Assembly (NCBI GenBank): GCA_022566355.1
Contig: JADFJB010000139.1
Location: forward strand, 1-11,669
Origin: a candidate division KSB1 bacterium
GTDB lineage: Bacteria; Zhuqueibacterota; JdFR-76; DREG01
Direction of reading: 5' to 3'
Length of the DNA: 11,669 bases
The notes under the pieces were generated by a model that had not been told where the DNA came from, did no database searches, and saw only the letters and a list, made by a program, of their open reading frames with translations. Shown here one piece after another: positions 1,435 through 10,745 of this stretch. Position 1 is the first letter of the stretch; each line of letters opens with the position of its first letter. The translations under genes were made by a program, and so were the position numbers.

Positions 1435-1621
1435 CTTTTCTATTCTCCATTTTTTAAGCTACAAACCAGGTATAATTTTAAAAAAACACACCCATTAAGG
1501 AATATCGGGCTCAAATTGAAAATAATAAGCCTATCTTATGTTAGCCATTATTTAGACATAGTTTTAACTAACCTGCAATTTCTTTATTGGGAATTTTTTT
1601 GTTCACACGGGGGTTTTCTTG
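1435..1621. other. Intergenic region upstream of pckA
   Basis: AT-rich spacer between the broken DUF559 gene and pckA, presumably holding the pckA promoter and leader on the minus strand. Only the pckA ribosome binding site (GGAG, about 10 bases before the ATG) is clear. A TTGACA hexamer occurs near 1618-1623 on the minus strand but has no good -10 partner 17 bases on. The short string AACACACCC at 1485-1493 resembles the tail of the repeats at 2022 and 2271 but is too short to call. No gene, RNA or terminator is seen. Confidence 0.5.
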
Positions 1622-1999
1622 TCAATCCACTTCTTCAAGTTCAATAATCTTAGCTTCAATCACTTTGATTACATCATCAACAACACGCTTCACTTCATAA
1701 TCCGTAAATCGGAGAAAATGAATCCCAAGTGTTTCTAATTTATTCTGGCGTTCTTGATCTTTTAGTATTTTGTATTCATGACTACGACCGTCAATTTCAA
1801 TGGCTAGCATCAATTCGTTACAAAAGAAATCAACAATGTAATTGTTCAGCGGTTTTTGACGATGGAAATCATATCCTCTAAGTTGTTTGCCTTTTAATTT
1901 TTTTCAGAGTAAAATTTCCGATAAAGTGCTATTATTACGTAAATTTCCGGCGAATTCCTTTAATTTTGGGTTGTATGCGATGATTTTTCTTCGAGGCAT
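1622..1999 (-). pseudogene. DUF559 / Vsr-like endonuclease-domain protein, interrupted by one in-frame stop
   Basis: Read from ATG at 1999 to the stop at 1622, the frame encodes a typical 125-residue DUF559 protein broken only by TGA at codon 32 (1904-1906), where the family has Trp (LSEILLW then K-rich). Upstream are MPRRKIIAYNPKLKEFA and LRNNSTLSEILL. Downstream are GYDFHRQKPLNNYIVDFFC, then AIEIDGRSH and the C-terminal FLRFTDYEV. The PD-(D/E)XK-like acidic residues are D57 and E68/D70. AAGGA at 2010-2014 is a plausible ribosome binding site, so the gene was once a proper unit. The family is related to very-short-patch repair endonucleases, and its biological role is poorly known. Downstream of the stop, 63 codons remain open from a TTG at 1813, but that fragment lacks the N-terminal helix and D57. 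The gene sits directly beside the palindromic repeat at 2022-2056. Confidence 0.88.
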
Positions 2000-2021
2000 T
2001 TTTGTGATTTCCTTAACAATA

Positions 2022-2056
2022 ACACACCCCTAAATCCCCTCTCAAGAGTGGACTTA
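2022..2056 (+). repeat. Palindromic repeat copy 1 (outer tail leftward)
   Basis: A 35-base unit with an ACACACCCC tail followed by an imperfect palindrome (TAAATCCCCTCT then AGAGTGGACTTA). It matches the reverse complement of the unit at 2230-2271 at 34 of 35 positions once a 7-base insertion in that copy is allowed for. Its outer 24 bases (2022-2045) are a perfect inverted match to 2248-2271. It lies about 20 bases upstream of the DUF559 start, so it would fall in that gene's 5' leader if transcribed from further upstream. Confidence 0.9.
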
Positions 2057-2229
2057 GGATTTAATTGACTTCAATTGATTATTATTTCAATAAGGAATTT
2101 TTTTCAATTCATTCTTTACTATTTTGGGTTCAACTAAGAGATCATTGGCTACCTTGAATTAGTTGAATTGAATTGTTTATTGATATATTTGGTCTTATAT
2201 AGCTATGAAATGTCCAATTGTCACCTGTT

Positions 2230-2271
2230 TAAGTCCCCTCTTGAGATTTGAGAGGGGATTTAGGGGTGTGT
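2230..2271 (-). repeat. Palindromic repeat copy 2 (outer tail rightward)
   Basis: Inverted partner of the repeat at 2022-2056. It contains TAAGTCCCCTCT and AGAGGGGATTTA as arms of about a 12-bp stem with one G-T wobble, then an AGGGGTGTGT tail. It carries a 7-base insertion (ATTTGAG, apparently duplicating neighbouring sequence) in the loop. It lies directly downstream of the ndh stop and could fold in that transcript. There is no following T-run on the minus strand, so I do not call it a rho-independent terminator. Confidence 0.88.
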
Positions 2272-2273
2272 AT

Positions 2274-3575
2274 TTATTTTGAGTATTCCCCGGTTATCAA
2301 TCTAGCGCCTCGCTTGCGGGTAAAATAATTCGTGGCCCATTGAAATAGTACTAAGACTCGGTTGTCAAATTCAATGAGGTAGGCAATATGGATAAAAATC
2401 CAAAGCAGCCAGGCAAAAAAGCCATGGAATTTTAAAAAACCCAAATCGGCGACAGCCGCATTTCTACCGATGACGGCCAGGTTACCCTTATTGAAATATT
2501 TAAAAGGAGAGACATCTTTCCCTGCAATTCTATTTCGGATTAATCGAGCTGCATACAGGCCTTGTTTCATGGCTACCGGACTAACACCAGGCAAAGGGTT
2601 ACCCGTCTGATGAGAAAAATTAGCCGAATCGCCGATGACCAGGATCTCAGGATATCCTTCAATGGATAAATCTTTCTGCACATAAATTCTGCCATATTGA
2701 TCGGCTTTTGCTTCGGTTCGTTCGACCAGTTTTTGGGTAAATGACGATGCTTGAACTCCAGCGGTCCACAGAACCGTTTTGGTTTGTAATTTTACGGTTT
2801 TCTCTTTTTGCTGAAGGTGTAATGTGCCGGGTTCTATTTCTGTAACCATGCTGTTGCATTCAATGGTAACGCCTAACTTTGTAAGTGCCCTCTCAGCTTG
2901 TATTGATAGATTAAGTGGATAAGATTGCAAAATTCGATCAGTTGCTTCAACCAGAATAATCTTACTGTCGCCGGGATTGATATTACGAAAATCATGTTTT
3001 AACGTGGCTCGTGATAATTCGCCCAAAGCCCCTGCTAATTCAACTCCGGTCGGTCCGCCACCAATCAACACAAAGGTTTGCCAGGCTTTGCGAATCTCTG
3101 GATCATGCTCGCGTTCGGCCGCTTCGAATGCCAGTAAGATTCGACTGCGGATATTAAGCGCATCTTCTATGGTTTTTAGCCCCGGCGCAATATCAGACCA
3201 TTGGTCATTGCCAAAATAATGGTGCTTGACTCCCGTTGCCACAACGAGGGTATCATAATGAATTTCACCATCAATTAATTTCACAACCCGGTTAGATGGA
3301 TCAATATCAACTGCTTCTCCTAATATTACTGTAACGTTTTTGTGAGATTTAAGGACTGATCGCAATGGCGCGCTAATATCACCTGGAGAAAGCCCACCCG
3401 TCGCTACCTGGTAAAGGAGCGGTTGGAAAAGATGAAAATTTCGACGATCGAGTAAGGTTACACAAACAGGAGTTCGCTTTAAGAATTTCGCGGCATAAAG
3501 CCCCCCGAAACCACCACCAATAATAACAACTTGATGGGTATTTGCAGATCGATTTTTATCGTGCGCCGAGTTCAA
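2274..3575 (-). CDS. ndh: Type II NADH:quinone oxidoreductase (NDH-2), TTG start
   Basis: Single-subunit, non-proton-pumping respiratory enzyme that passes electrons from NADH through FAD to quinone at the inner face of the cytoplasmic membrane. It has 433 residues, the usual size. Visible features are an FAD-binding Rossmann motif VVIIGGGFGG (16-25), a second dinucleotide motif IGGGPTGVE (171-179) with acidic E210 ending the next strand (favouring NADH over NADPH), the FAD-contacting VIGD (313-316), the AMKQG quinone-site motif (335-339), and a hydrophobic, Trp-rich C-terminal membrane anchor (about 384-413). The only in-frame start before the FAD motif is TTG at 3575. An in-frame TGA lies a few codons upstream, so the start is well constrained. 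The first 20 bases overlap the end of the M28 peptidase gene, suggesting translational coupling. It ends TAA, just before the palindromic repeat. Confidence 0.95.
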   Translation of the reverse strand: MNSAHDKNRSANTHQVVIIGGGFGGLYAAKFLKRTPVCVTLLDRRNFHLFQPLLYQVATGGLSPGDISAPLRSVLKSHKNVTVILGEAVDIDPSNRVVKLIDGEIHYDTLVVATGVKHHYFGNDQWSDIAPGLKTIEDALNIRSRILLAFEAAEREHDPEIRKAWQTFVLIGGGPTGVELAGALGELSRATLKHDFRNINPGDSKIILVEATDRILQSYPLNLSIQAERALTKLGVTIECNSMVTEIEPGTLHLQQKEKTVKLQTKTVLWTAGVQASSFTQKLVERTEAKADQYGRIYVQKDLSIEGYPEILVIGDSANFSHQTGNPLPGVSPVAMKQGLYAARLIRNRIAGKDVSPFKYFNKGNLAVIGRNAAVADLGFLKFHGFFAWLLWIFIHIAYLIEFDNRVLVLFQWATNYFTRKRGARLITGEYSK

Positions 3576-10181: not shown

Positions 10182-10427
10182 TTAGGTACTGATCTGATAA
10201 GATTTCCCTATTGGTTTAAATTCTTGTATATCTTCACTTTCTAGTTTTAACCTAATTTGTTCAAATCTTTCAACGGTTTCCTTTTGATATAAACGCTCTC
10301 CGCAATGACTACAAACTTCTGCCATAACTTTAATTACAGCTGTATGATTTCCACCCCGTAAGAGCTTTTCAACTTCTTTAATAATTAACTTACCTCCACA
10401 TAATGGACATTTCTGAAATGATTTCAT
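10182..10427 (-). CDS. YgiT-type zinc-finger protein, probable antitoxin
   Basis: Intact 81-residue protein with paired zinc-binding knuckles C7-C10 (CPLCGG) and C39-C42 (CSHCGE), as in the N-terminal half of MqsA/YgiT. Proteins of this size and type are commonly encoded next to DUF4258 or similar small toxins. The C-terminal part (about 50-81) is charged. It lacks the helix-turn-helix domain of full-length MqsA, so autoregulation by this protein alone is doubtful. ATG at 10427 overlaps the ancestral stop of the DUF4258 gene as ATGA. The purine stretch AAGGA touches the ATG directly, too close for normal ribosome binding, so translation probably relied on coupling to the upstream gene, which is now frameshifted. 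Confidence 0.85.
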   Translation of the reverse strand: MKSFQKCPLCGGKLIIKEVEKLLRGGNHTAVIKVMAEVCSHCGERLYQKETVERFEQIRLKLESEDIQEFKPIGKSYQIST

Positions 10428-10745
10428 TCCTTTTTCTTTCTTTTACGATATTTGATCCATAAATCAGGTCAGGTTTGTATACTGTTACTAGTACTGACCA
10501 TTTACGATCTTCATCATAAGCCCAAACTGAATGAATCGGTTCTCCATTTTCAATTTTCCGAAAACTAAACAGCTTGGATAAGGTTTATCTTTTGGATATT
10601 CTTCAATAATTTCTCCATTCAATACTGAACGCAAAATCTCTGTTAATTTCAATCTGTCAGCAAATGCTTCCTCGTCTGCATGATCGGTAATTCGTATTCG
10701 ATTTGAATGAATCGCATCAATGAGTTTACTTACCTCTATTGACAT
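10424..10745 (-). pseudogene. DUF4258 protein (putative toxin), two frameshifts
   Basis: The present frame from ATG at 10745 gives 85 residues, of which the first 66 are DUF4258-like (ITDHADEEA, then YPSCLVFGKLK) and the rest is out-of-frame sequence ending in TAG. Shifting at the T-run 10547-10550 (one A missing on the coding strand) restores NGEPIHSVWAYDEDRKW and SVLVTVYKPD. A second shift at 10467-10468 (one C missing, or a 5-base CCTGA duplication) restores DLWIKYRKRKKKE and a TGA overlapping the next ATG. The repaired product would be about 107 residues, normal for the family. DUF4258 proteins are small and often paired with YgiT-type zinc-finger or HTH partners as putative toxins. AAGGA four bases before the ATG is a good ribosome site. 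Real decay or sequencing error are both possible. Confidence 0.85.

Follow-up and report, generated by a model that had tools for sequence, protein, structure and literature searches.

The window, that is, the whole 11.7-kb stretch of DNA analysed here, holds a DUF559 open reading frame (ORF) between pckA and the NADH dehydrogenase gene. Two inverted copies of a short repeat unit accompany it (Table 1), and the unit scan found only these two units of their type in the entire window. About 25 bp lie between the inner unit and the start of the ORF, in agreement with the earlier note, which had placed a palindromic repeat close to the gene; the inverted copy that it described further on was confirmed by an inverted-repeat search, with arms at 2015-2045/2248-2278 (31 nt, 90%) and 2040-2056/2230-2246 (17 nt, 94%). 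The inner unit consists of a stem (TCCACTCT..AGAGGGGA), a turn and the tail GGGGTGTG, with one stem mismatch and no tail mismatches in the triplex-unit scan. The outer unit has no mismatches in the same scan, and 3 nt separate the end of its tail from the ndh stop codon.

Table 1. Coordinates of the features at the DUF559 locus of the window
Feature	Position	Strand	Remarks
3' side of the DUF559 ORF up to pckA	1435-1621	.	place of the second inward-facing unit in intact elements
DUF559 (PF04480) ORF, Vsr / I-Bth0305I-like PD-(D/E)XK nuclease	1622-1999	-	125 codons, disrupted
In-frame TGA within the DUF559 ORF	1904-1906	-	from translation and raw sequence
Inner repeat unit	2022-2056	-	tail toward the ORF; triplex-unit scan and inverted repeat
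AT-rich spacer between the units of the inverted pair	2057-2229	.	from sequence and inverted repeat
Outer repeat unit, inverted copy	2230-2271	+	tail away from the ORF; triplex-unit scan and inverted repeat
ndh (NADH dehydrogenase) ORF	2274-3575		

With its internal stop read through, the ORF matches PF04480 at E=7e-28 and 97.1 bits (cut-off 20.6), and the catalytic columns are retained. The window copy is disrupted, because its in-frame TGA replaces a tryptophan that is invariant among the aligned relatives (W32 in the copy on contig C146; two alignments). The C146 copy, from the same genome, is intact, 84% identical to the window copy, and scores 102.4 bits against PF04480. Homology between the two loci extends only from the inner repeat as far as the stop codon: upstream of the C146 unit nothing aligns with the spacer, and no second unit is recognisable by unit scan on the 3' side of the window ORF. 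Three features of the locus are absent from the earlier note: the nonsense codon, the tail mirroring the stem and the lack of a 3' partner repeat. The window copy most likely represents a decayed example of a very small mobile element. An empty site at pckA-ndh, which the earlier note proposed to look for, was dropped as a comparison because gene order differs in the two relatives that carry pckA.

Elsewhere in the window, two small ORFs resembling a toxin-antitoxin pair lie between cytochrome c maturation genes (10182-10745). Judged by eye from the translations, one product resembles MqsA, with a CxxC..CxxC pattern, and the other is DUF4258-like.

To our knowledge, DUF559 has no agreed function. 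One member, VsrA from Caulobacter, has been assigned a mismatch-repair role in a DNA-damage setting (PMC12907096). An AlphaFold2 model of the C146 copy (pLDDT 90.7) has its best matches, among those listed, in the DUF559 protein 3hrl from Neisseria (Z 16.5), the homing endonuclease I-Bth0305I (PDB 3r3p, Z 12.4) and Vsr (1cw0, Z 9.4), and the protein is thus predicted to fold like the latter two. Among these matches, I-Bth0305I is the closest solved structure whose role is known. Holliday-junction resolvases and TnsA from Tn7 follow with lower scores, which may reflect the fold only. Invariant residues are R21, E28, W32, D57, E68, D70, H74 and D81.

The repeat unit and its predicted triplex

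Each unit is made of a G/C-rich hairpin, a turn of mostly 2-5 nt and a G/T-rich tail. The tail mirrors the purine arm of the stem, keeping G and replacing A mostly by T, or else retaining A. Examples of purine arms with their tails are GAGAGGGG with GGGGTGTG, GGAGGGG with GGGGTGG, GAAGGGGG with GGGGGATG, and GGGAGAGGG with GGGTGAGGG. When the register is set by G alone, the tail base opposite a stem A is T in 133 cases, A in 79, G in 16 and C in 5. A perfect fit to this code is seen in 72% of cognate stem-tail pairs, in 30% of pairs swapped between loci and in 3% of shuffled tails. As read from the sequence, the code corresponds to an antiparallel purine-motif triplex, whose triplets are G*G-C and T*A-T (or A*A-T), and the tail can, by its predicted pairing, fold back on the purine arm as a third strand to give an antiparallel intrastrand triplex. 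The window units possess the three parts that define PIT/TM motifs: a pyrimidine arm, a complementary purine arm and a third arm with the triplet code. The corresponding E. coli motif forms a triplex in vitro, and in vivo footprinting did not show a stable triplex in E. coli (PMC4666352).

Many units (L107, L124, L130, L138 and L167) hold a second small G/C-rich hairpin within the turn, for instance TGGCGCGCAGCGAC, which causes simple unit scans to miss them.

Copies, linkage and mobility of the element

The exact core of the unit, GGGGATTTAGGGGTGT, was counted by sequence searches of the 4.62-Mb genome to which the window belongs. It occurs five times: twice in the window and once each on C146 (beside the DUF559 gene), C105 (beside a DUF559 fragment) and C43 (without DUF559). 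In four of the five cases a DUF559 gene or fragment is only 57-290 bp away. The genome-wide search proposed in the earlier note therefore yields a strong enrichment of the repeat beside DUF559 genes and their remnants, and the genome-wide occurrence without such enrichment that it had named as counting against the idea was not seen.

A search with the C146 element further detected copies on contigs C105, C157, C113, C156, C44 and C68 in which an end is kept and most of the gene, or the whole of it, is gone. MITE-like internal-deletion derivatives of the element exist. The C105 and C157 copies have a common deletion joint (..GATAATTA/CACACCCCTGAAAATCC) and are a few substitutions apart. As this shared joint is found at different loci, the sequences suggest that the deleted form was itself copied.

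Several other observations were made in this genome. The C146 element sits inside a diversity-generating retroelement cassette (L051, 136-516 and 1233-1784), with avd, which matches NF033474 above cut-off, on one side and a reverse transcriptase frame without its N-terminal part on the other. Contig C82 encodes a second DUF559 subfamily (L018, 2401-2760), flanked by a different unit family (GGGGAGGTTAGGAGGGGTTG) and broken by a short stop-containing insertion. Lone copies of the 3' end unit (ACACACCCCTGAAAATCC plus hairpin) are found on contigs C26, C134, C185 and C193, several of them adjoining tandem CCAGCATCCAGTATC-type repeats. The genome also has four Y1-type transposase genes (L101-L104, on C72, C12, C135 and C34) with other palindromes around them; at C34 at least, the Y1 gene is flanked on either side by a palindrome of its own (GAATGCATCAACCGTGTTGATGC) that bears no relation to the DUF559 units.

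The association of units with DUF559 genes extends to other genomes of the same phylum and well beyond it. Eighty DUF559 loci were selected solely on the basis of the protein; they come from Bacteroidota, Planctomycetota, Cyanobacteriota, Thermotogota, Chloroflexota, Bacillota and other phyla. Strictly defined units with inward tails occupy both sides of 29 of 73 DUF559 loci; among the 355 other ORFs of these contigs, 2 are flanked in this way (Fisher p=8e-23). In a relaxed scan, units are present on both sides of 48 of 73 loci (2 of 366 other ORFs) and on any side of 64 of 73 (27 of 366). Within 150 bp of DUF559, tail-inward units reach a density of 3.8-4.6 per kb, while the remaining non-ORF DNA of these contigs has 0.32 per kb. 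Units also accompany DUF559 loci in Neisseria, Sinorhizobium, Sphingomonas, Azospirillum, Deinococcus and cyanobacterial replicons, and one is located downstream of ycjD in E. coli K-12. Outward orientation of the nearest tail was seen at 16 of 110 loci, including Deinococcus, and no units were found when looked for at the DUF559 gene of a phage-like plasmid from Thermoactinomyces. DUF559 genes of relatives and of other phyla thus have repeats on both sides, and the lack of repeats in relatives, which would have spoken against the earlier note, was not observed.

Two candidates were discarded during these comparisons. The ycjD locus is not a clean empty site, since E. coli strains without the gene have an efflux operon there. 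CGTC-tagged alphaproteobacterial repeats were considered as partners of DUF559, and the alphaproteobacterial DUF559 flanks observed proved to be G/C-rich triplex units instead.

Unit sequences follow the DUF559 tree, and units and nuclease co-diversify. The tree requires 23 changes of unit type, compared to 43-55 with shuffled labels, and Bacteroidota alone require 8, compared to 13-17. In one Pontibacter genome, six DUF559 genes fall into several clades, and every clade has a unit family of its own. The tree is built on few columns and has many weak forks, and therefore its single branches are not to be trusted.

In Pontibacter, an element with its flanks was used as query across 46 genomes of the genus. 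At least 13 other loci match only from query position 509-512 to 959-967, a unit-gene-unit block of about 454 bp whose homology stops at the outer hairpin edges. The aligned ends read GGAACAATTCCCC... and ...GGGGAAT, and the left one has a conserved GGAACA extension that may belong to the element or to the target; no target-site duplication was recognised by eye in these aligned ends. At the original site, an acyl-CoA dehydrogenase locus, several genomes have the flanking genes adjacent, with neither gene nor units between them, and one has a truncated copy. In two genomes the block is reversed relative to the flanks, between the same flanking genes, and at least one reversed block lies at a different spot within the same gap. 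One insertion is found directly behind a terminator. The earlier proposal that repeat and nuclease travel together is supported by these recurring blocks and by the sites without the element, and its view of the palindrome as an end sequence by the stop of homology at the hairpin edges. Units and DUF559 gene are very probably mobile together.

Units are also found on their own. One genome (G001) has 6 units and no DUF559, and two others (G004 and G005) have 19 and 25 units, mostly distant from any DUF559 and often arranged as gene-less, MITE-like tail-in pairs. Across the phylum, repeat and gene therefore do not strictly co-occur, since such units persist without the gene. They fit loss of the gene or mobilisation in trans, which does not prove that they depend on DUF559; a known parallel is offered by orphan REPs that have no RAYT. 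The pairs of G005 and G004 (L207-L221) are present in high copy with their tails facing, one unit having an ATTTA turn and the other a G/C-rich hairpin within the turn. Motif pairs in E. coli are similarly reported to join two loop types.

The role of the nuclease

The locus is best explained, with a probability of roughly two in three, as a REPtron-like mobile element in which the triplex or hairpin ends are the probable substrate of the PD-(D/E)XK nuclease. The usual element would comprise a triplex-forming hairpin unit, one DUF559 gene and a second, inverted unit, about 450 bp in total. The nuclease would recognise the hairpin or triplex once the strand is exposed, for instance on the lagging strand, and would cut at the unit edge. 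With the help of host replication or repair, the block or bare units would then be copied into new intergenic sites. Scattered single units and MITE-like pairs would represent non-autonomous progeny, comparable to the REPs of RAYTs. Linkage, co-diversification and fold point to DUF559 itself as the mobilising enzyme, a role that is somewhat favoured over its alternatives taken together.

Among these alternatives, the least improbable makes DUF559 a passenger, with units and gene moved in trans by a Y1/HUH transposase (RAYT) or another enzyme. The mobilisation of REPs by RAYTs offers a known analogue and the genome itself encodes four Y1-type proteins, yet other palindromes surround those genes, the DUF559 units have no GTAG tag, and unit subtypes that track DUF559 clades are not readily explained by a passenger. 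This possibility is therefore considered unlikely.

A still smaller share falls to a free-standing homing endonuclease, for which pre-existing unit pairs would be a landing site rather than a part of the element. The kinship with I-Bth0305I and the gene-less tail-in pairs of G004 and G005 are compatible with such a role. However, the Pontibacter sites without the element miss the units as well as the gene, and the copies at unrelated loci share unit-gene-unit and nothing outside. No more probable is a structure-specific repair nuclease that clears triplex or hairpin obstacles and whose expression is regulated by the adjacent units: while the Vsr fold and the DNA-damage setting of Caulobacter VsrA (PMC12907096) agree with it, it leaves unexplained the inverted units on both sides, the end-keeping derivatives and the homology stopping at the hairpins. 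Finally, a reading of the units as bidirectional terminators or as ordinary intergenic repeats, with DUF559 near them as an inter-operon gene, draws on their intergenic position, their G/C-rich hairpins and the one Pontibacter insertion directly behind a terminator, but is already contradicted, and very improbable, given that units are rare elsewhere on the same contigs, both at other ORFs and outside ORFs, that a terminator needs no stem-mirroring tail, that unit type tracks the DUF559 tree, and that the promoter and terminator tests of the E. coli motif cited in PMC4666352 were negative.

If the mobile-element reading holds, a PD-(D/E)XK nuclease cutting triplex-hairpin ends would represent a transposition chemistry unlike that of known transposase classes. 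The link would give orphan triplex repeats and orphan DUF559 proteins each a partner, making DUF559 the first enzyme to be proposed for this class of bacterial DNA repeats, which is known but had none. The odds are about even that DUF559 proteins in general are dedicated mobilising nucleases of bacterial intrastrand-triplex repeats and form widespread minimal mobile elements.

Comparison with known systems

REP/RAYT systems are the closest analogue. In both cases a single small gene lies between inverted palindromic units, the units also occur alone and paired, and each enzyme clade has its own repeat. The RAYT enzyme, however, is a Y1 HUH transposase, in contrast to the PD-(D/E)XK nuclease of the DUF559 element, and its palindromes bear a GTAG tag, whereas the DUF559 units have none and their tail mirrors the stem as a putative triplex third strand. 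Neither GTAG nor CGTC was found at the DUF559 unit ends, which read GTCCCC / GGAACAATTCCCC with tails GTGTG/GTGGG, and the gene between the units is DUF559 rather than a Y1 (PF01797) gene. The comparison with REPs drawn in the earlier note hence stands as an analogy and fails as membership, on account of the enzyme fold, the missing GTAG tag and the other palindromes of the Y1 genes.

The units themselves share the architecture of PIT/TM motifs, which have a pyrimidine arm, a purine arm and a third strand, a TTA or CCG turn, and occur as inverted pairs (Hoyne 2000; Holder 2015, PMC4666352). No gene had previously been linked to those motifs, whereas the DUF559 units are linked to one. According to the 2015 paper, transposases or integrases were never found near triplex motifs (PMC4666352), and one large class of palindromic repeats has been left without a transposase (PMC3733652). 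Triplex repeats are therefore already known, and it is their link to a gene that appears to be new: no connection between DUF559 and repeats was found in the open papers searched, subscription journals and preprints lying outside the search.

DUF559 has its fold and catalytic core in common with I-Bth0305I and Vsr. Unlike I-Bth0305I, the 125-aa DUF559 protein has no DNA-binding extension and its gene is bounded by hairpin units; in the window and in the annotated copies examined, the gene has an intergenic position and is not housed in an intron or intein. MITEs and small insertion sequences share with the DUF559 element the inverted ends and the internal-deletion derivatives that keep them, but the DUF559 element encodes no DDE, tyrosine or serine transposase and has no recognised target duplication. 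Neither the candidate enzyme class of this kind of element nor its putative end structure fits a known mobile element.
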